Of a stretch of 42,399 nt of DNA, positions 2,208 to 42,399 are shown piece after piece. The notes beneath the pieces are model-generated. The model searched no databases, was not told the origin of the DNA, and saw only the letters and a program-made list of their open reading frames with translations. Made by a program: the position numbers and the translations under genes. Source of the DNA: a virus. Within the stretch, counting starts at the first letter, position 1, and every line of letters begins with the position of its first letter. The stretch is from IMG/VR virus record IMGVR_UViG_3300050821_003356, positions 1 to 42,399 of that record. The stretch is one strand, 5' to 3'.

Positions 2208-2440
2208 AACTCCTGATGATCTCCAATCCCGTCACATACCGCGAAATGTGCCAAGTTATAGCCGCGAACATGGAGTTCCGCAACAAACTGACCGGGGAGA
2301 GCGGCATTAGAATGACACCGGAACAGGTTTTCAATTATTCCCCCCATGGCGAGCTGTTCAACATTCCGTTTTGGTTTTGGCAATGCATTCACGCGATGGG
2401 TGGTAGTACTTACTATTCAGATAGGATGATTGAGACATGA
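2204..2440 (+). CDS. hypothetical protein, 78 aa
   Basis: Start chosen at the ATG in the ATGA overlap with the methyltransferase stop, and it ends in an ATGA overlap with the epimerase. The protein begins with a hydrophobic strand (KLLMISNPV) and has an aromatic-rich segment (FNIPFWFWQ, about residues 48-56). Its translational coupling between two sugar-modifying enzymes suggests a related or accessory role. I recognise no family and no catalytic motif. Confidence 0.6.
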   Translation: MKLLMISNPVTYREMCQVIAANMEFRNKLTGESGIRMTPEQVFNYSPHGELFNIPFWFWQCIHAMGGSTYYSDRMIET

Positions 2441-3312
2441 AACTCCTAATCACCGGCTCAGCCGGATTCATTGGTTCGTACGCGGTCAAGGCAGCAATGG
2501 CGCGCGGGTGGGAAGTCGACTCCCTGGACATCCGCGCACGACCGCCGCGCAACGCCGACGTGCGGCTGTTGACCCGCATGGAATGCGACGTGGTGCTGCA
2601 CCTCGCGGCGTACAGCAGCAACGCGGGCTTCGCCTGGACGCTGGCCGACAACTACGCGTGCAACGTGATGGGCACGTGGAACGTGCTGCGACTCGCCGCG
2701 CAGTCCGGTGCCCGCCTGGTGTACGCCAGCAGCAGCTCGGTGTACGGGACTTGTGCAATGGGAAGAGACGCAATGAACTCTCCTGTGCAGTGGGAAGGCC
2801 AAGGATTGTGGCCTAGCGCCAGCCATTACGGAAGATCGAAACTCATGACCGAACTAATGGCGGCGAGCTTCACGAACACCCTCGGGCTGCGCATCTTCAA
2901 CGCGTACGGCCCCGGCGACGAACTCAAACCGCCCGGTAAGCAAGCGCCGCCCACATGGATGCGCATCGCGAAAGAGCGCGGCGAGCCAATCGTGATCTAC
3001 GGCGACGGCACGCAGGCCAAGGACTTTATCCACGTGTCGGATGTGGTCGAGTGCATCATGCGGCTGATCGAGTCGGACGCTACCGGCATCGTCAACGTGG
3101 GCACGGGCGCGGCGACGAGTTTCAACGATCTGGCGCGCATTGTCGGCAGGTGGCCGAGCACTGATATCGCGGAGATGGCCGGGAATATTGAATATCGCCC
3201 GATCCCAGACCCGGCGAGTTATCAGCATTTCACGCGAGCGGACTGCACGCGGCTGCTGTCGATCATCGGGCCGTACGAGTTCAAGAGCATTGAGGAGGGC
3301 TTGGCGCTGTGA
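2437..3312 (+). CDS. NAD-dependent sugar epimerase/dehydratase (SDR, GalE-like), 291 aa
   Basis: An extended short-chain dehydrogenase that acts on NDP-sugars. The Rossmann motif TGSAGFIG is at residues 6-13. HLAAYSS is the conserved strand-4 motif, SSSSVYG near residue 100 carries the catalytic Ser region, and the catalytic YxxxK pair is Y131 and K135. RIFNAYGPGD and DFIHVSDV are the usual substrate-binding segments. Length is slightly short of typical GalE (about 340 aa) because the C-terminal substrate domain is trimmed. It would supply an epimerised or dehydrated nucleotide sugar to the neighbouring glycosyltransferases, with methylation by the two upstream methyltransferases. Exact substrate is not readable. 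Confidence 0.88.
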   Translation: MKLLITGSAGFIGSYAVKAAMARGWEVDSLDIRARPPRNADVRLLTRMECDVVLHLAAYSSNAGFAWTLADNYACNVMGTWNVLRLAAQSGARLVYASSSSVYGTCAMGRDAMNSPVQWEGQGLWPSASHYGRSKLMTELMAASFTNTLGLRIFNAYGPGDELKPPGKQAPPTWMRIAKERGEPIVIYGDGTQAKDFIHVSDVVECIMRLIESDATGIVNVGTGAATSFNDLARIVGRWPSTDIAEMAGNIEYRPIPDPASYQHFTRADCTRLLSIIGPYEFKSIEEGLAL

Positions 3313-3572
3313 CGGAATTTCAGACCAGAGTACACTTGGCGGGACAGCCCACAGGGCCTATTCAGAAATGCGCGCGGTGCGGCGTCACGTTGATCGATTA
3401 CCGAAACTCCGCAGGCATGGGCGAATGGTCTCCGTCTTGGTGGGCTGTTGGGGCATTCATTGGGGTCACAGAGCGCGCAGACGGCGGCGTGTGCAATCCG
3501 ACCGGATACGCGGTGCTCGCGATGGATGCCAGTGCTATTGATGAGATCCGTTGTGATGGAGTGCCGCAGTGA
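3309..3572 (+). CDS. hypothetical protein with a CxxC pair, 87 aa
   Basis: GTG start overlapping the epimerase stop by four bases and ending in a GTGA overlap with the next glycosyltransferase. One CARC motif is at about residues 21-24, with two more cysteines in the second half, so a small metal site is possible but incomplete by eye. The middle is Trp/Gly-rich (WSPSWWAVGAF). No family recognised. Location inside the glycosylation operon is the only functional clue. Confidence 0.55.
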   Translation: MTEFQTRVHLAGQPTGPIQKCARCGVTLIDYRNSAGMGEWSPSWWAVGAFIGVTERADGGVCNPTGYAVLAMDASAIDEIRCDGVPQ

Positions 3573-4330
3573 AGATACAAGCGTTTCTTCCCTGCTACCA
3601 GGAAGCCGACATCCTCCCGCACGCGCTGCGACACCTGCATCAGCAGGGCTGCGCGGTGCACGTGATCGACGGGTGGAGCACAGATAACAGCTACGAAATA
3701 GCGATGCAATTCGGCACCGTCGAGCGCTTCCCCGCGTCCGTGCCCGATCCAATCCAAAACTGCACCGCGATCCTGAAGCGCATTGAGGATCTGGCCGCGG
3801 AGTCCGACGCCGATTGGATTCTCTACACAGACGCGGATGAGTGGCGGCGCAGTTACTTTGACTGGGAGACTCTCGGGCAAGCCGTCGCACGCGTGCAATC
3901 TTCAGGTTTCAACGCCATCGACTTCCGCGTGTTCCAGTTCTACTGCGTCGGTCCAATGTGGGATGGACGCGCGGATTCAGAAAACCCAGAGCGTTACTTT
4001 CGCTACTACGACGAGGCCGACTGCATCTCGCGAATCCCCAACCGCAAGCTCTGGAAGAACGTGGGTCGCGTGCAGCTCGCCGGCGGAGGGCACGAGGTCA
4101 CCTTCCCCGGCATGCGCGTCTACCCGCAGAAATTCACGATGAAACACTACCCGTTCCGCACGCCCGAGCAGGCTCGGCGCAAGATCGAGACGCGGCTTGC
4201 ACGTCGCCGGATGGAGGAGCACGCCAAAGGCTGGGGCGTTCATTACGATCAATACCCGCCTGGGTTCGACTTCACCTGGGACCCGGCGAAGCTGCTGTAC
4301 TGGAAAGACGCGAGGTCGCCGCTGCCGTGA
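3569..4330 (+). CDS. glycosyltransferase family 2, 253 aa
   Basis: Starts with GTG in a GTGA overlap. The N-terminal strand is KIQAFLPCYQEADIL, the GT2 opening. The DGWSTDNS segment (about residues 35-42) is the nucleotide-binding loop of GT2 enzymes. DADEW at 88-92 is the DxD metal motif in the form typical of GT2/TuaG-like and GT92-like enzymes. The C-terminal half has many basic and aromatic residues, including a stretch with IETRLARRRMEEH. It is a distinct enzyme from those at 290 and 40645, so the phage appears to build more than a single-sugar linkage. Cytoplasmic; acceptor unknown. Confidence 0.85.
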   Translation: MKIQAFLPCYQEADILPHALRHLHQQGCAVHVIDGWSTDNSYEIAMQFGTVERFPASVPDPIQNCTAILKRIEDLAAESDADWILYTDADEWRRSYFDWETLGQAVARVQSSGFNAIDFRVFQFYCVGPMWDGRADSENPERYFRYYDEADCISRIPNRKLWKNVGRVQLAGGGHEVTFPGMRVYPQKFTMKHYPFRTPEQARRKIETRLARRRMEEHAKGWGVHYDQYPPGFDFTWDPAKLLYWKDARSPLP

Positions 4331-10020: not shown

Positions 10021-10049
10021 TTGCACGGACGTGGACGTTGCGATACACT
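10021..10049 (+). promoter_or_regulatory. promoter of a candidate small RNA
   Basis: TTGCAC (10021-10026), 17-base spacer, TACACT (10044-10049). This is a good sigma70-type match, and transcription would begin near 10056. No open reading frame of note begins before the terminator ending at 10155. Confidence 0.5.
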
Positions 10050-10055
10050 TCGGGG

Positions 10056-10155
10056 GTTGTAAGCGATTCCTCCGAATCGACTGTGGAAAACGACTCTACA
10101 CGCCGCCGGGCGCGAATCGAGGTGAAATTCCTCGGGGCGCTCGGCGGTTTTTTTT
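10056..10155 (+). ncRNA. candidate phage small RNA, about 100 nt
   Basis: Lies between the promoter at 10021-10049 and a strong intrinsic terminator. The predicted transcript has a small hairpin CGATT-cctccg-AATCG near its 5' part and an unpaired A/C-rich middle. It ends in a GC-rich terminator stem followed by eight T residues. Promoter, non-coding body and U-rich terminator are the layout of trans-acting sRNAs. Since the genome also encodes an Hfq/Sm-like protein (35085), an Hfq-type partnership is a reasonable hypothesis. It could instead be simply a terminator that insulates the gene at 10188. Confidence 0.4.
10103..10155 (+). terminator. strong Rho-independent terminator
   Basis: CCGCCGGGCGC (10103-10113) pairs with GCGCTCGGCGG (10137-10147), 11 pairs with one G-U. 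An inner hairpin CGAGG (10118-10122) pairs with CCTCG (10130-10134). Eight T residues (10148-10155) follow. It stops plus-strand transcription coming from the HNH side or from the local promoter at 10021. Confidence 0.8.
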
Positions 10156-14468: not shown

Positions 14469-14490
14469 CACTTAGTAAGATTGCGGTAAC

Positions 14491-14537
14491 AAGCCGCTAC
14501 GTCATCTCGTAGGAGGCGGCGTAGCGGCTTTTGTTTT
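14491..14537 (+). terminator. strong Rho-independent terminator after the major capsid gene
   Basis: AAGCCGCTACG (14491-14501) pairs perfectly with CGTAGCGGCTT (14520-14530), 11 bp, followed by TTGTTTT. It separates capsid from neck and tail genes, so the latter would need read-through or their own promoter. The AGGAGG in the loop is not at a useful distance from the next ATG. Confidence 0.85.
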
Positions 14538-14546
14538 GAGTAAGTC

Positions 14547-14999
14547 ATGGCATTCACTTACACACCAGGAACGCCGATATTCTATGTCAGGTTACTAATA
14601 CCTGACACGGTTTCCCCTGGAATATTCAGCGACGACGAAATCACCGGGCTGATGCAGATCAACTCTCTCACATGGCAGAGCTCGATGTACTACAGCTACC
14701 AGGGTGGCGCGCTCAATCTGCCGCAGTGCCCGAGCAACTTCCTTCGCGCGGCGGCGCTCGCACTAAACACACTGGCTGGGAATCAAGCGCGGCTCGCGGC
14801 AGTGACGCAGTTGCTCGACGTCAAACTCAACCCCGCAGCGGCAGCAACGGCTCTCAAGGCGCAGGCGCAGGCCTACCTCGACATGGACGATAACTCGGGG
14901 GCGTTCGCGATCTATGAGCAGTGCGGGACTTCGTGGGCATTCCGCGATCGCTGGCTTAACCAGCTACAGCGGCAAACGGGAGGAGGCGCGGTTTCTTGA
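14547..14999 (+). CDS. head-tail adaptor (neck) protein, 150 aa
   Basis: First gene after the capsid terminator. A helical protein: FSDDEITGLMQINSLTWQSSM, then CPSNFLRAAALALNTLAGNQARLAAVTQLLDVKLNP, then AQAQAYLDMDD. This helical bundle with a conserved D-x-E-I opening is typical of HK97 gp6/SPP1 gp15-type adaptors that bind below the portal. Its position fits. The stop overlaps the TTG of the next gene. Confidence 0.7.
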   Translation: MAFTYTPGTPIFYVRLLIPDTVSPGIFSDDEITGLMQINSLTWQSSMYYSYQGGALNLPQCPSNFLRAAALALNTLAGNQARLAAVTQLLDVKLNPAAAATALKAQAQAYLDMDDNSGAFAIYEQCGTSWAFRDRWLNQLQRQTGGGAVS

Positions 15000-33190: not shown

Positions 33191-33477
33191 GCAAGAGCAA
33201 CTTACCCGACAGTCGCCTCAAGTGCCTATGTGGACTGTGTAACCTGTGCCGCAGTCGCAAGGCCCGGCGCAGGGTCGCGGAGGGAAAGCGCACTGGCGTG
33301 CCATACGTCGGCCCTCGCACGGGACCGCGGCGGGTGAAAGGCGATGGAGTGATCGAGCACGCGTTGAACAACCACGGCGGATGGGATGCGGTGATATCGC
33401 GGCAACGTCAGGAGGCTATGTTCGTCTGGCTGAACGAGCGTTTCGCGGCGCGGGTCGCGGGGGTGATCGGTGGGTAA
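33187..33477 (+). CDS. zinc-knuckle protein, 96 aa
   Basis: ATG in an ATGA overlap. Four cysteines in the segment LKCLCGLCNLCRSRKARRR (about residues 12-30) with Arg/Lys-rich flanks strongly suggest a zinc- or nucleic-acid-binding element. The rest has GDGVIEHALNNHGG and a helix. Its stop lies inside the start of the cytosine methyltransferase. Possibly a DNA-binding accessory to the neighbouring enzyme, which is inference from position only. Confidence 0.6.
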   Translation: MSKSNLPDSRLKCLCGLCNLCRSRKARRRVAEGKRTGVPYVGPRTGPRRVKGDGVIEHALNNHGGWDAVISRQRQEAMFVWLNERFAARVAGVIGG

Positions 33478-34552
33478 GCCGCTGTGCATCGATCTCTTTT
33501 GCGGGCTCGGGGGTTGGTCGGAAGGCTTCCTCGCGGAAGGTTGGGACGTGGTGGGATTTGACATTGAGCGCCACGTGTACGGCGAACAGCACTACCCCGC
33601 GCAACTCGTAATCCAGGACGTGCTCACATTGAACGGTCGGCAATTCCGCAATGCCGATTGCATTGTAGCTTCCCCACCCTGCCAAGAGTACTCCTACATG
33701 GCGATGCCCTGGAGTCGAGCAAAGCAGATTGCGGCGGCGTTGAGGGGGCACGGCGCGTTTCCAGAAGAGTATGCAGGCTCGCGCACCATCCCTGAACTGA
33801 CGGCCCTATTTGACGCCTGCTTTCGCATACAGCGGGAGGCGTGCGAAGCTGTCGGCCGCTACATCCCGATGGTAGTCGAGAATGTGAAGGGCGCCCAACC
33901 GTGGGTCGGTAGAGCGAACGCGAACTTCGGAAGCTTCTATTTCTGGGGCGACGTGGCCATGGTGGGTGGGCAGGTAGTCGCAGGGCGTCCGCAGTTCGGG
34001 CAGACGGTAAAGGCGGCGCGCCGAACGCGGAAACAGGCCGGCCGGAATTTCCACTTCCCCGAAAAGTACGGCATTCCCTCGCCAAGCTTCCACGGGGCCG
34101 AGCACGAAGAGAGCGTGGCGGCCGCCCTCCAGATCGCAGGCTCGAAGAATAGCGGGGGCTCCTGGTTCGATGTGGCGCACAACACGGAATCAGGCACGGG
34201 ACAGAACCCCGTGAACGGCGCGAAAACGGAAGGCCACGCCAACATCAGAGACGGACACTCGCACACTCGCCACCTGACGAATCAGCGAGAATCGGACGCG
34301 CTGAAAGTTCCCGGTATCAGCTTCAGCGGATATGGAGAGCCGGGATACAAGCCGCAAGGGTTTAACGTGACAGCAGCGCAGCGGTACCGGGGAGAGAACG
34401 GCACCAAACAGGAAGGCAGCGGACCAGAGTGGTTCGATAACGGAATCGCCAAGCATTCCTCCCGTTCCGACTCCCGCAAGGCAGCAAGCGCCCAAATCGC
34501 GAAGATTCCCTTTCCTCTGGCGAGTTACATCGCGCGGGTTTTCAAGCCATGA
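33470..34552 (+). CDS. C5-cytosine DNA methyltransferase, 360 aa
   Basis: Methylates cytosine C5 in a short target. Motif I is D8-LFCGLGG, motif IV is PPCQ at 69-72 with catalytic Cys71, and motif VI is E137-NV. The last 20 residues (AQIAKIPFPLASYIARVF) are motif X. Between about residues 170 and 330 is a target-recognition region rich in Gly/Asn/Ser that differs from usual restriction-type enzymes. No restriction endonuclease lies nearby, so it is an orphan, probably protecting phage DNA from host restriction. GTG start inside the previous gene. Confidence 0.9.
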   Translation: MGKPLCIDLFCGLGGWSEGFLAEGWDVVGFDIERHVYGEQHYPAQLVIQDVLTLNGRQFRNADCIVASPPCQEYSYMAMPWSRAKQIAAALRGHGAFPEEYAGSRTIPELTALFDACFRIQREACEAVGRYIPMVVENVKGAQPWVGRANANFGSFYFWGDVAMVGGQVVAGRPQFGQTVKAARRTRKQAGRNFHFPEKYGIPSPSFHGAEHEESVAAALQIAGSKNSGGSWFDVAHNTESGTGQNPVNGAKTEGHANIRDGHSHTRHLTNQRESDALKVPGISFSGYGEPGYKPQGFNVTAAQRYRGENGTKQEGSGPEWFDNGIAKHSSRSDSRKAASAQIAKIPFPLASYIARVFKP

Positions 34553-34824
34553 CGAACGCCGAGAAAGAGCGAACCTGCGCGCTGGCGAGAGAGGAAGACT
34601 CCGAGGCTAACTTATTCGCTATGTGCCTACTCATGCCAGAGAAGTTCGTCCGTAAGTGGATTAGAGAAAATTGGCCGGACGGATTTGATTTGACCGATGA
34701 CCGTCAACTGAAGAATTTCGCCAAGGCTTTCGCGGTTTCCGATGGCGTAGCGGCATGGAGGCTGGCCGATCTAGGGATAATCGGGAGGCCCGTCAAGCGC
34801 CACGGTCATGGTGATCTGGAGTGA
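34549..34824 (+). CDS. ImmA/IrrE-like C-terminal fragment, 91 aa
   Basis: Overlaps the methyltransferase stop (ATGA). The sequence EDSEANLFAMCLLMPEKFVRKWI, then LKNFAKAFAVSDGVAAWRLADLGI matches the segment that follows the HExxH zinc-protease motif in ImmA/IrrE (DUF955) enzymes: EANxFAxxLLMP and a C-terminal FxVSxxAxxxRL helix. The catalytic HExxH and the preceding half are absent. It may be a decoy, anti-repressor or substrate-binding module rather than a peptidase. Similar short versions occur in other phages to my knowledge. Confidence 0.65.
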   Translation: MTNAEKERTCALAREEDSEANLFAMCLLMPEKFVRKWIRENWPDGFDLTDDRQLKNFAKAFAVSDGVAAWRLADLGIIGRPVKRHGHGDLE

Positions 34825-34967
34825 GCAACGCCGAAAAGGAAGCGATAATCAAGACCGCACGCGCGCTCGACCGCATCGCGATTCCGCTAATCTACGCCGG
34901 CGCCAGCCCGGCAGAGGCGTACCGCGCGGCGCTGAAATCCCTTGATGCCGCGGCGAGAGCGCGGTAA
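34821..34967 (+). CDS. small helical protein, 48 aa
   Basis: GTG start in a GTGA overlap with the previous gene. Helical sequence with two segments (AEKEAIIKTARALDRIAIPLIYAG and SPAEAYRAALKSLDAAARAR). The stop TAA at 34965-34967 is part of a TAAAAT element. No family recognised. Confidence 0.5.
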   Translation: MSNAEKEAIIKTARALDRIAIPLIYAGASPAEAYRAALKSLDAAARAR

Positions 34968-35084
34968 AATGGATGTGCGAGATATTTCGCTCGGGTAGCT
35001 CCTGAGCGCTGCACCGCTCGATGGGGGCGTTTTCCTTGTCCGCCGCCCATCGACGGTGTAAAATCCGCAGAAAGACAAAGGACA
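34968..35084 (+). promoter_or_regulatory. promoters and structured leader of the Hfq-like gene
   Basis: TTGTCC (35036-35041), 17 bases, TAAAAT (35059-35064) is a good promoter about 20 bases before the ATG, with an AAAGGA Shine-Dalgarno. A second TAAAAT (34965-34970) lies upstream. Its transcript would contain a GCTCGGG/CCTGAGC hairpin, a GAGCG/CGCTC hairpin and a longer CGATGGG...CCCATCG pairing (35018-35053 region). The hairpins share bases, so alternative folds are possible. No protein is encoded here. Confidence 0.5.
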
Positions 35085-35411
35085 ATGACTAACTCAACGC
35101 CAGTTAGGCCCCCTCTTATCGCCTCACTAACAACGGCTCCCAAGCCAACACCAGCACCAATCACAACCAAAACGCCTGAACCTGCGGCAGAAAAGCCGAC
35201 TTATTCGGACCCGGACAGGCACGAGCCGGACCGTCATCTCTGGAATGACGCCAAGCACTCAAGGAGAACCACCAGGTTTACTCTCTTGACGGGGCAGGAG
35301 ATTGACGGGGTGGTCTACGAATTCGGACGATTCTCCATCGCCGTCGAGACCGCCCTCGGTCGGCGAGTTGTGATCTTCAAGCACGCACTGATGAGCGCCG
35401 AAATGGTGTAG
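35085..35411 (+). CDS. Hfq/Sm-like RNA chaperone, 108 aa
   Basis: The C-terminal half reads as a divergent Hfq: an N-terminal helix-like HLWNDAKHSRR (51-61), then TLLTGQEIDGVVYEFGRFSIAVETALGRRVVIFKHA (66-101). In Hfq the equivalents are a strand ending in NG, then L-x-G-x-I-x-x-FD-x-F and the (Y/F)KHA Sm2 hallmark; here F98-KHA is intact. The first 45 residues are Pro/Thr-rich and disordered, so its tail is at the N-terminus, unlike E. coli Hfq. Expected to form a ring that binds sRNA or mRNA, host or phage. It has its own promoter and structured leader. Confidence 0.75.
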   Translation: MTNSTPVRPPLIASLTTAPKPTPAPITTKTPEPAAEKPTYSDPDRHEPDRHLWNDAKHSRRTTRFTLLTGQEIDGVVYEFGRFSIAVETALGRRVVIFKHALMSAEMV

Positions 35412-35420
35412 GATTCCACG

Positions 35421-36158
35421 ATGGAATGGTTCCGTTGCTACACTCGCACCCTGGACTCAGCGAAGGTCCAGGGATTACCTTTGGAGCTTTTTAAGGGCTG
35501 GTTCAACCTCTGCTGTCTGGCGCGAGTCCACGACGGCCCCTTGCCGCCATTCAAAGAAATCGCCTTTCGCCTGCGCGTTAGTGAATCCAAAGCTCAGAAC
35601 TTAGTGCTCTCCCTGGAATCCTGCAATCTCATAGATAGGAACGAAGATGGAACGTTTTATATGCACGACTGGAACGAACACCAACGCGTTTCAGATGACG
35701 TTGCGCAGCGTGTCGCGAAACACCGCGAGAAACGAAGAGGTAACGTTACTGAAACGCCCTCAGAGCAGAGAGAGCAGAAACAGAGCAGAGCAGACACAGA
35801 AACCGGCGCTGTCGCGCCGACTGTGCGCGTGCGCGCCGACCGCTTCGCGGAGTTCATTGCTCCGTGGCCGCGCGTTGCAAAGCCCGATCAAGCCGCGCGC
35901 ATGTGGCTCTCGGTAATCGACACCCCGGCGGATGAGGATCTCGCATTTCTCGCGCGCGACAGATACCTGGCTAGCGATGAGGTTGCGCGTGGAGTGGTCG
36001 GCGACCCGGCGAAGTGGTTGCAGGACCAGAAGTCCGCGAAGTGGGGCGGTAAGTGGCCTGCAGCGGTAGCGAGAGCACCGAACGGCAAAGCGAGCACAGG
36101 CGACCGCGTGCTGGCGAAAATGGTGCAACGGATTGCGAACGGAGAAAAACCCCTATGA
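35421..36158 (+). CDS. winged-helix replication initiator-like protein, 245 aa
   Basis: ATG nine bases after the Hfq-like stop. The first 95 residues look like a winged helix: WFNLCCLARVHDGPLPPFKEIAFRLRVSESKAQNLVLSLESCNLIDRNEDGTFYMHDWNEHQ, similar to phage replisome-organiser/DnaD-type N-termini. A basic Gln/Glu/Arg-rich linker follows, then a helical C-terminal half ending KWLQDQKSAKWGGKWP. The next gene is a small helical protein, the usual initiator plus helicase-loader pair. No polymerase or helicase is present, so host replication enzymes would be recruited. Confidence 0.6.
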   Translation: MEWFRCYTRTLDSAKVQGLPLELFKGWFNLCCLARVHDGPLPPFKEIAFRLRVSESKAQNLVLSLESCNLIDRNEDGTFYMHDWNEHQRVSDDVAQRVAKHREKRRGNVTETPSEQREQKQSRADTETGAVAPTVRVRADRFAEFIAPWPRVAKPDQAARMWLSVIDTPADEDLAFLARDRYLASDEVARGVVGDPAKWLQDQKSAKWGGKWPAAVARAPNGKASTGDRVLAKMVQRIANGEKPL

Positions 36159-37004: not shown

Positions 37005-37240
37005 TCGTGACTGACCCAGTGCCGCGAGAGCCGCGGCGGTCTGAGATTATTCACGGTTTGATCACTCTCCGTAAGTCCGGCGAACTGCAGGGAGTGTGGG
37101 TAGACTCTGACGTAATCCGCGTTCGCGAGTCTGGGCTGTTTACCGGGGCGCCGTCAAGGTTGACGTGGAAACGAGCGGCTGAGATGATCGAGCGCGCCGC
37201 GATCGCCGCGGCAGAGCGCCAAGCGAGGGAGCGCGCGTGA
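37001..37240 (+). CDS. hypothetical protein, 79 aa
   Basis: ATG in an ATGA overlap. Contains RSEIIHGLITLRKSGELQGVWVDSDVIRVRESGLF, beta-like, then SRLTWKRAAEMIERAAIAAAERQ helix. Overlaps the DNA methyltransferase GTG by four bases. No family recognised. Confidence 0.5.
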   Translation: MIVTDPVPREPRRSEIIHGLITLRKSGELQGVWVDSDVIRVRESGLFTGAPSRLTWKRAAEMIERAAIAAAERQARERA

Positions 37241-37905
37241 AGCCGTATTTCGAGCAAGATGGAATCACGATCTATCACGGCGACTGTCGGGAGATCCTAC
37301 CAACACTGTCTGTCAAGGCCATCGTCTCCGACCCGCCGTACGGAATGGCTTACGTGCCTCTCCGTGGGTCGGACGGCTCGAAGCGTTGGAGCGATCGGCT
37401 AACGCGCCGGGTCCAGGGAGATGAGAAGGCGTTTGACCCCGCACACTTGCTGGGCGATTGGCCGTGTATTCTGTGGGGCGCGCACTGGTATGCGGACAAG
37501 CTTCCGGCTTCGGGCGGTTGGCTCGTGTGGAACAAGATTCCGAACGGGCGCAAGGAAGGGTTTTTCGCTTCCGATTGCGACATGGCTTGGACAAACGTTC
37601 GTCAATCGACCCGCATGTTTGAGTTGCAATGGGGCGGCGAGGCGCGAGGCGGCGAGATGTTCTACCACCCGACTCAGAAGCCCGTTTCGTTGATGAGTTT
37701 CTCAATCCAGCAACTCGGCAAAGTTGGGTCGATTGTTGATCCCTATTGCGGCTGCGGTCCCACACTGGCCGCTGCGCGCATGTGGAATATTCCGGCCATC
37801 GGAATCGAGATCGAGGAGCGCTACTGCGAGATCGCCGCGAATCGGCTGCGTCAGGGTGTGCTCTTCGCAAATGACGCGGTTTGCGGTAGGATGGGCGCAG
37901 AGTAA
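37237..37905 (+). CDS. DNA N-methyltransferase (N6-adenine or N4-cytosine), 222 aa
   Basis: GTG start. Motif IV D32-PPYGM is near the N-terminus, ILWGAHWYADKLP and the FYHPTQKP motif follow, and the SAM site D168-PYCGCGPTLAA is near the C-terminus, so this is the beta-class order (catalytic before SAM). IGIEIEERYCEIAANRL is the end of the class. The usual DPFxGSGT is DPYCGCGPT here. Orphan enzyme, no endonuclease nearby. Together with the C5 enzyme at 33470 it gives two independent modifications. The target is not readable. Confidence 0.88.
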   Translation: MKPYFEQDGITIYHGDCREILPTLSVKAIVSDPPYGMAYVPLRGSDGSKRWSDRLTRRVQGDEKAFDPAHLLGDWPCILWGAHWYADKLPASGGWLVWNKIPNGRKEGFFASDCDMAWTNVRQSTRMFELQWGGEARGGEMFYHPTQKPVSLMSFSIQQLGKVGSIVDPYCGCGPTLAAARMWNIPAIGIEIEERYCEIAANRLRQGVLFANDAVCGRMGAE

Positions 37906-40113: not shown

Positions 40114-40655
40114 GTGTAACCCACCAAGATTTATCTGGACGCATGTTCGGGGCGTGGCTGGTATTAGAGCGAATCCCCAGAAAAGGCAGAGAAGCTGCGT
40201 GCCGCTGTGCATGTGTGTGTGGCGCGATAAGATTGATTGCTGGGGGCTCTCTCAAGAATGGACACTCATCTAGCTGTGGGTGTGTTTCTAGGGCCTTTCA
40301 TAGCATCCTTAAACGTCGCCACGGAATGTCCGATACTCGCTTGTATCACGTTTGGGGATCAATGGTGCAGCGATGCAGAAATCCAAAATCTGGCGGGTAT
40401 CAGCACTATGGAGGCCGCGGAATCAAGGTCTGTGAGCGGTGGCTCTTGTTCGATAACTTCCTCGAAGACATGGCTCCACGACCGGATGGGATGACGCTGG
40501 AGCGAATCGATAATGACGGGCCGTACTCGCCGGATAATTGCCGATGGGCCACTCGCAAAGAGCAGCGCGCCAACCAAAGGCCAGTGGATCGCGCGCTCAG
40601 AAGCGCCTCCATGAAAGCGGTGTGGGCAAGGATGAGAGGTGCCAGTGCATCCTAA
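40110..40655 (+). CDS. HNH/AP2-type homing endonuclease, 181 aa
   Basis: N-terminal zinc domain: [23 protein letters not shown], then [11 protein letters not shown]. The HNH/AP2-type half follows: [34 protein letters not shown], then [29 protein letters not shown], a very common free-standing homing endonuclease architecture in phages. It lies between a membrane protein gene and a glycosyltransferase, so it is probably a recent insertion in the accessory block. Its end overlaps the next gene's start. Confidence 0.88.
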
Positions 40656-41364
40656 GGTATCGGTCGTAATGCTGTTATCATCGGGCCGCGATGCGATGCA
40701 AGTTAGGGCAAGAAACTCCATACAGGCGCAGACTTACCCCAATCTGGAACTTGTCGCGTTGGACACCGCGCCGTACGTTGGTCACACAATCGGCTACATC
40801 CGTAATGTTGCGAACGCATACGCCACTGGAGAAATGATCGCGCATGCTGATGACGATGACATTAGTCATCCTCGCAGAATTGAAGAGCAGGCTGCACTTT
40901 TGCTCGCGTCCGGCAAACAGTGCGTCGGCTACCGCGAGCTGCTTTTCTGGGACACGCGCAACAAGTTCCCCAAGTCCACCATCGGCGGAATGCCAGCGAA
41001 TGAAGCGTGGCTCTACCGCAACCACCAGGCGAACTGGGCCGCGGGAGCGAGCCTGCTCTACAGGCGAGAGCTCTGGGAAAGGCAGCCATTCGACGACGCG
41101 CCGCACGAGGACATGCGGTGGATGCGCACGCCGCTGGTGAGTCGCGAGTGTCTGAGCGTCGGCACGCACATTCCCCTGCTGGCAGGCAGCGAATTCGGAA
41201 GGGAGCCCGATCCGCACCCGAGGCCAGCAGAACCCCGCATAGTGTGCGGTATCCACGCTAGCAACACCGAGGGCTACGACCGCGCGGTGATGCTGCGCAA
41301 CCCGGACGTGTGGCGACGGGCACCCGAGTTTGACGCGTACTGTGAAAGGGCGATGAGACTGTGA
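40645..41364 (+). CDS. family 2-like glycosyltransferase, 239 aa
   Basis: Start uncertain between GTG 40639 and GTG 40645; GAGAGG spaced six bases from 40645 favours the latter. The opening [17 protein letters not shown], a [14 protein letters not shown] segment and D69-DDD ([15 protein letters not shown]) are GT2 features. The middle has [25 protein letters not shown] and the end has [16 protein letters not shown]. It belongs to the circularly contiguous glycan module with the GTs at 290 and 3569. Donor unknown. Confidence 0.85.
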
Positions 41365-42121: not shown

Positions 42122-42366
42122 TCACGTATTCGATCGATAAGTCTCTGCCTGTGATCCACCCTGATAAATGCTGCGTGGAGTGCGTTCACATGGCGATAAG
42201 CGTAGCCATCCCTGGTTACTCAGAATCCACTCCCGGCGAAAACTTCTCGATGGAGTGCGCAAAGGATGTCTGGGATTACTGGCACGGCGCAACAGAAGAC
42301 GAATACCGCGACTGCGTGCTATCAGCGAAGCGGTGTGTTCTTTTCGAAGAGAGGGGAGCAAAGTAA
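42118..42366 (+). CDS. hypothetical cysteine-containing protein, 82 aa
   Basis: GTG start in a GTGA overlap with the methyltransferase. Contains DKCCVECVHMAISVAIP (Cys at about 18, 19 and 22), CAKDVWDYW and two later Cys, so a small metal or disulfide-bonded fold is likely. The segment C-x2-C...C...C is not a named family to me. It ends one base before the ATG of the 39-residue gene that crosses the circle junction. Confidence 0.55.
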   Translation: MITYSIDKSLPVIHPDKCCVECVHMAISVAIPGYSESTPGENFSMECAKDVWDYWHGATEDEYRDCVLSAKRCVLFEERGAK

Positions 42367-42399
42367 CATGATCTACATTATCGGTTTCGTGATTGTCTT
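42357..42399. repeat. 43-bp direct terminal repeat, right copy
   Basis: Identical to bases 1-43. It contains the end of the 82-residue gene and the first codons of the small membrane protein gene. See the left copy for interpretation. Confidence 0.9.
42368..42399 (+). CDS. start of the 39-aa membrane protein gene, cut by the window end
   Basis: The first ten codons and two bases of the gene at 12-131 recur here because of the terminal overlap. Not a separate gene. Confidence 0.85.
   Translation, partial: MIYIIGFVIV

Follow-up and report, generated by a model that had tools for sequence, protein, structure and literature searches.

The gene under study lies on the plus strand at positions 35085..35411, stop codon included, of a phage genome from soil; all positions refer to the window, which is the whole 42,399-bp virus record. 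The open reading frame encodes 108 amino acids (ORF list) and is preceded by a probable Shine-Dalgarno sequence at the short spacing of 2 nt (AAAGGA, 35077..35082, plus strand). Positions 1-43 of the window recur at 42357-42399 as a direct terminal repeat of 43 nt, so that the record probably represents a complete phage genome (~42.36 kb). A tRNA scan found no tRNA genes. Downstream follows the gene of a 245-aa replication initiation protein (35421..36158, plus strand), which matches phrog_3926 (E=3.2e-12), phrog_9474, the replisome organizer family phrog_13246 and Pfam Phage_rep_org_N (E=6.7e-4). Its start lies 9 bp past the stop codon of the upstream gene, which bears out the placement just before a replication gene in the sequence-only reading that had proposed a phage Hfq here. 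The stop codon overlaps the initiator Shine-Dalgarno sequence (gTAGGA, with TAGGA at 35409..35413, plus strand), and we infer that the two genes are probably translationally coupled.

Two sigma70-like promoters were located upstream of the Hfq-like gene by a promoter scan, in line with the earlier proposal of a promoter of its own: P1 (TTGATG-17-TAAAAT, 34942..34970) and P2 (TTGTCC-17-TAAAAT, 35036..35064), both on the plus strand, where they make up two of the seven sigma70-like sites of the whole 42 kb. Folding predicts two hairpins on the plus strand of the leader, the 8-bp hairpin I (34988..35008) and the 19-bp hairpin II (35010..35060), the latter at -31.5 kcal/mol (z=-5.4 relative to shuffled sequences) and with the U-rich loop UUUUCCUUGUC at 35030-35040, which contains four consecutive U at most. 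The structured leader that had been proposed thus stands for transcripts from P1 only, while transcripts from P2 would have a leader of ~14 nt without the hairpin. Hairpin II doubles as an inverted repeat spanning P2, and because of this overlap a role as a DNA operator is an alternative. The 3' arm of hairpin I can alternatively pair with 35015-35029 to form a weak terminator-like hairpin followed by UUUUCCUU, and when folding is followed along the growing transcript, this alternative forms before hairpin II is completed. A separate sRNA of ~60 nt ending at this weak terminator was considered as a possibility only, its folding being no better than that of shuffled sequences (z=-1.05). After correction for G+C, the leader region ranks fifth in structure among 1,057 sampled segments of 129 nt. 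Two intergenic regions with very strong hairpins are more structured, one followed by a T-rich run and terminator-like (14481-14560) and one ending in TTTTTTTT inside the structured region (10041-10150). No Rfam matches were obtained for the leader or the whole genome. The leader has one other known copy, in the sole close IMG/VR copy of the Hfq-like gene, IMGVR_UViG_3300021406_000036, which is identical across the 10,324 bp compared and is apparently the same virus; no diverged copy was found.

According to our profile searches, the 108-aa protein is related to Hfq, but at a distance. The NCBIfam Hfq model TIGR02383 matches residues 52-103 with E=7.9e-6, at 25.7 bits against a curated cut-off of 61.7 bits, and the Pfam model PF17209 matches with E=1.2e-4, at 22.0 bits against a cut-off of 27 bits, so that the protein falls under the curated Hfq threshold in both. 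A PHROGs profile search assigned it to no Hfq family. When the single sequence was searched against the PDB, the Hfq matches were weak (best E=0.074). A five-member phage profile (A5) returned B. subtilis Hfq as the best match (E=1.5e-10), together with 30-odd further Hfq chains, and its alignment to four canonical Hfqs by hhalign reached 97.1% probability (E=5.4e-11). By profile-profile comparison the protein is homologous to the Sm/LSm superfamily, and within it to the Hfq branch.

The AlphaFold2 monomer, computed from a shallow alignment of five sequences with 15-29% identity to the window protein, consists of a helix (47-59) and five strands (62-67, 72-80, 84-89, 94-98 and 102-107), with a pLDDT of ~90 over residues 61-108. 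Every one of the 50 PDB matches listed by Foldseek is an Hfq, and for most of them the rmsd is 0.6-1.2 A across ~60 residues. We place the Hfq-type Sm domain at residues 47-108 (35223..35408, plus strand). The Hfq/Sm-like fold read from the sequence is supported by these profile and fold matches, including the two points on which that proposal had been staked: LSm profile matches were obtained with NCBIfam, Pfam and hhalign, and the model is a five-stranded Sm barrel behind an N-terminal helix.

The residues of the domain allow a more specific prediction. Both motifs recognized earlier were recovered in place, G75-x-V77-x-x-F80-x-x-F83 as well as the intact Sm2 motif F98-K99-H100-A101 (canonical Y-K-H-A; 35376..35387, plus strand). 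The protein was aligned with Hfq of E. coli, S. aureus and B. subtilis. With canonical Hfq it has in common the helix and five-strand Sm fold, the glycines G70 and G75, F83 and K99-H100-A101. The proximal pocket is mostly retained in this alignment (Phe42 corresponds to F83, Tyr55 to F98, Lys56 to K99 and His57 to H100), and some basic residues of the rim are kept (K57, H58, R60). Gln41 is replaced by R82, and an arginine is common to the Aeromonas relatives described below. Further replacements affect the Gln8-Asp9 pair at the start of helix 1, which is H46-E47, and Asp40 of Sm1, which is G81; the histidine in place of Gln8 is common to the aligned phage relatives. The distal A-R-N site is lost (Tyr25 is T66, Ile30 is Q71, Gln52 is R94 and Thr61 is S104). 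Since the proximal pocket is retained and the distal site is not, its predicted ligand is U-rich RNA and not A-R-N RNA. Hfq identity in the strict sense did not survive this comparison: the Hfq/Sm-like fold and family hold, but scores below the cut-offs, a lost distal A-R-N site and a lost Gln8-Asp9 pair are features, judged by sequence, of a divergent Hfq-like subfamily and not of an Hfq orthologue.

The tail sets the protein further apart, as canonical Hfq has no tail at the N-terminus and the window protein has none at the C-terminus. Residues 1-46 (35085..35222, plus strand) include 11 Pro and 9 Thr and have no predicted secondary structure, and the pLDDT is ~54-60 over residues 1-50, consistent with the disordered N-terminal rather than C-terminal tail that had been proposed. 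K37-P38 and H46 are common to the Aeromonas and Nickievirus relatives in the alignment. In place of the C-terminal tail of bacterial Hfq, the N-terminal tail may provide a flexible linker or an arm that carries charge or binds proteins. One match in a bacterial genome (Ruminococcus) was confined to residues 13-38 in the low-complexity tail and was dismissed as spurious.

The state of the pocket bears on two alternative functions. Oligomeric sponges are a known counter-defence strategy of phages, and the protein might be an Sm ring that does not act on RNA at all; it could, for instance, be such a sponge and take up a nucleotide immune signal or some other small ligand. Hfq binds adenine nucleotides, and the ATP complex 4j5y is among the listed fold matches. 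However, the pocket that is retained is the U-RNA pocket and not the adenine-binding distal face, and the gene is set in a replication operon rather than in a counter-defence island, so that we regard this function as extremely improbable. Alternatively, the ring might intervene in the RNA network of the host, either by sequestering host sRNAs by their U-rich 3' ends, the distal mRNA face being absent, or by mixing dominant-negatively with host Hfq, so that host metabolism or defence would shift to the advantage of the phage. A retained proximal pocket together with a lost distal A-R-N site is what would be expected of an sRNA holder unable to anneal mRNA, and it is established that there are phage sRNAs which need host Hfq or compete for it (review PMC12197685). 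Against this stands the coupling to replication genes across unrelated elements, which better fits a role on the phage's own transcripts. Mixing with host Hfq may moreover be blocked by the N-terminal tail and the altered interface. We consider an action on the host RNA network doubtful.

Relatives were found among other mobile elements. A tblastn search of INPHARED with the window protein gave no match, and no close host homologue was found in one scan of bacterial genomes, the reach of which is close relatives. A further tblastn search identified Aeromonas elements of ~110 kb with phage tail genes, in which a protein annotated as 'RNA chaperone Hfq' is 35% identical over residues 31-102. With the Aeromonas proteins as queries, Pseudomonas phage hairong was reached, and from there five further Nickievirus records, including Nican01, the gene of which had already been named hfq by its depositors; Hfq is not mentioned in the papers published on Nican01 and on a further Nickievirus, psageB1. 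With 31.4 and 38.2 bits, respectively, the hairong and Aeromonas proteins score above the Pfam threshold for Hfq. Among viral proteins, the nickie protein matches the window model best by fold, a link that is independent of the sequence search.

The placement of the gene recurs in these relatives. In Aeromonas and hairong, 8 nt separate the Hfq-like gene from the next gene (TGAGGTGA, TGAGGT), and in nickie, Nican01 and phiK7B1 the two genes overlap by 8 nt; the next gene encodes a DnaB-like helicase in all of them. We propose to group such proteins as N-terminally extended, replication-operon Hfq-like proteins of mobile elements, with an N-terminal extension before an Hfq-type Sm domain and an initiator or helicase gene next to them at a gap of -8 to 12 nt. 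The window protein belongs here with its extension of residues 1-46 and its 9-nt gap to the initiator. A member of phrog_2500 is encoded two genes upstream of Hfq in Aeromonas and directly upstream in the Nickievirus-like loci, and on the basis of this common neighbour we count Aeromonas and Nickievirus as one lineage. The window phage, with a different replication protein, would be a second lineage, and published archaeal plasmids a third. Judged by its context, namely the coupling to replication genes in the window and in other phages, the protein is at least as likely to target phage transcripts or replication as host sRNAs.

Known systems share some features with the window protein and differ in others. 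The proteins of the Aeromonas phage-plasmids (for example NZ_AP024137) have an extension that contains KKP...HE, an FKHA motif and a replication gene 8 bp downstream, but they differ in the DnaB-like helicase partner, in an Sm domain that scores above the Pfam cut-off and in their phage-plasmid lifestyle. The Nickievirus proteins (nickie CNR34_00048; Nican01 'hfq') likewise combine a short extension containing KKP...H(E/Q) with an Hfq-type Sm domain and coupling to a replicative helicase, yet mostly have FKS for FKHA, carry a long loop insertion in some cases and are 15-22% identical to the window protein. In Thermococcus plasmids pIRI48, pP12-1 and pCIR10 and in Methanocaldococcus plasmid pMETVU01, the genes of N-terminally extended, C-terminally Hfq-like proteins directly follow helicase genes, and the authors suggested in 2013 that these proteins take part in plasmid replication (PMC3543421). 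These share with the window protein the C-terminal Hfq-like domain, the N-terminal extension, the mobile element and a transcription unit with a replication gene, in their case a helicase (PMC3543421). They differ in the N-terminal zinc finger of most (not pIRI48), as opposed to a disordered Pro/Thr-rich tail, in gene order, since the archaeal gene follows the helicase and the window gene precedes the initiator, and in their carriers, which are archaeal plasmids and not a bacterial tailed phage. Among mycobacteriophages, Adephagia gp39 is a predicted Hfq-like protein (PMC11373665), and the BFVD fold matches include entries from Tonenili and Phabba; all three are phage-encoded with a predicted Sm/Hfq fold and are likened to the window protein by fold alone. 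Hfq3 of Bacillus anthracis plasmid pXO1 also belongs to the Hfq family and lies on a mobile element, where it has been studied as an extra host Hfq, and no link to a replication operon is reported in the part of the source consulted (PMC5348863).

Canonical Hfqs occur in phage-like settings as well. Records in INPHARED that appeared to be canonical phage Hfqs proved to be either host-type hfq genes on bacterial scaffolds or entries that are short or lack annotation, and one of them looks chromosomal because of its miaA-hfq pair. Three IMG/VR loci (L036:2956-3237, L038:1344-1583 and L040:3031-3216) contain short Hfq genes of canonical type in phage-like, possibly temperate surroundings with HTH genes nearby and no obvious adjoining replication gene in the stretch read. 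In view of these contigs, a phage Hfq as such is not unique, and together with Adephagia gp39, Tonenili, Phabba and Nican01 they mean that Hfq-like proteins of phages are already known. On the small Macrococcus plasmid pMP8659_3 (L005:3935-4141), a 68-aa hypothetical protein with GREITIFKHAV is encoded beside a type I toxin-antitoxin gene and is a possible minimal Hfq-like protein (Pfam E=0.088, a weak match). Our searches of an open-access library turned up neither a study of an Hfq-like protein from a bacterial phage nor a description of phages with the gene of such a protein in a replication operon.

The proximity to replication genes could also mean a direct part in the replisome instead of RNA regulation, with the ring binding ssDNA, origin DNA or primer RNA, or with the tail docking to the initiator or helicase. 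The gene adjoins the initiator here, DnaB-like helicases in Aeromonas and Nickievirus and helicase genes in the archaeal plasmids (PMC3543421); Hfq can bind DNA, with the solved complex 5uk7 among the listed fold matches, and the 19-bp inverted repeat lies directly upstream of the gene. On the other hand, no DNA-binding feature specific to the protein was seen, the partner replication proteins differ in family, which argues against a single conserved protein-protein contact, and a sister phage replicates without an Hfq-like gene. We therefore hold a replisome function to be unlikely.

This sister phage (IMGVR_UViG_3300044529_000016, 42.7 kb) is colinear with the window, with structural proteins 42-68% identical and an initiator 42% identical. 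No Hfq was found in it with the Pfam model, and an HNH endonuclease gene precedes its initiator. The Hfq-like gene is not conserved in either of the initiator relatives L021, which belongs to the sister phage, and L022, and since the sister with its 42%-identical initiator does without it, the gene is non-essential for replication in this phage group. That both the sister and a further initiator relative lack it at this position would fit a moron, that is, an accessory gene captured from the host with little function in the phage. Such a gene would hardly be expected to keep an intact reading frame, a complete fold, a retained pocket and a stop codon overlapping a Shine-Dalgarno sequence; the same placement occurs in unrelated elements, and the one scan for close relatives in bacterial genomes yielded no host homologue. 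We judge this origin very improbable.

In the sister phage, an 88-aa protein is encoded ~0.75 kb farther upstream of the initiator (L021:2998-3261). It belongs to a family with 68 IMG/VR loci (L021 and L052-L118), a length of 80-90 aa and the consensus NYIYTGKL...IVYETG...IESFG, for which no confident sequence match was found in Pfam, PHROGs or the PDB. Its AlphaFold model (pLDDT 94) is a small barrel; most of its listed PDB matches are Sm/LSm proteins from archaea and eukaryotes (E from 7e-4), and the family is possibly an unnamed phage Sm/LSm family. Both sisters would thus have Sm-fold proteins of different families upstream of the same initiator, the Hfq-like protein here and the 88-aa protein there. 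This is suggestive of a common function but no proof, and at other loci the neighbour genes of the 88-aa family vary.

We posit that the window protein forms an RNA-binding ring that acts on early or replication transcripts of the phage and thereby tunes expression of the initiator, a reading to which we assign a probability of about 0.5. By analogy with Hfq, the protein would assemble into a ring, probably a hexamer, the proximal pocket of which (F83, F98, K99, H100) would bind short U-rich RNA. It would be made in the early operon, with its translation coupled to that of the replication initiator, and would act post-transcriptionally on the phage's own early transcripts; its own mRNA might also be controlled via the structured leader with the U-rich loop. 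The Hfq profile matches, the five-strand model, the retained pocket, the recurrent placement and the two promoters with the hairpin count in favour of this action on phage transcripts. The sub-cut-off scores, H46-E47, G81, the loop of only four U and the sister without the gene count against it.

The recurrence of this arrangement in unrelated phages and in plasmids of archaea suggests that certain mobile elements supply an RNA chaperone of their own to control their replication. If true, the link between Sm/Hfq proteins and the replication of mobile elements proposed for archaeal plasmids in 2013 would reach bacterial phages, and an Hfq-like ring supplied by the phage and tied to a replication gene would be a strategy different from that of phages' own sRNAs, which borrow or compete for host Hfq (review PMC12197685). 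More speculatively, and as a tentative idea at best, tailed phages and archaeal plasmids may repeatedly have equipped their replication operons, or the vicinity of these, with private Sm-fold rings, Hfq-like or of the second Sm/LSm-like family of the sister phage, for a dedicated control of replication at the post-transcriptional level that works with a cis-encoded leader RNA. The arrangement is directly testable in isolated, culturable Nickieviruses, which have it as well.

Some further genes of the window were recorded. The replication region is flanked by two DNA methyltransferase genes (33470-34552 and 37237-37905), one of the C5-cytosine type and one of another type. Two genes upstream of the Hfq-like gene, a 91-aa protein (34549-34824) shows borderline similarity to the ImmA/IrrE metallopeptidase domain (21.9 of 22 bits). 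Genes resembling glycosyltransferases and sugar epimerases were noted by reading in the terminase-portal interval (290-1069, 3569-4330, 40639-41364 and 2437-3312). Two of them (290-1069 and 3569-4330) are kept in the sister phage with 52-60% conservation, and the set may serve sugar modification of DNA or capsid.
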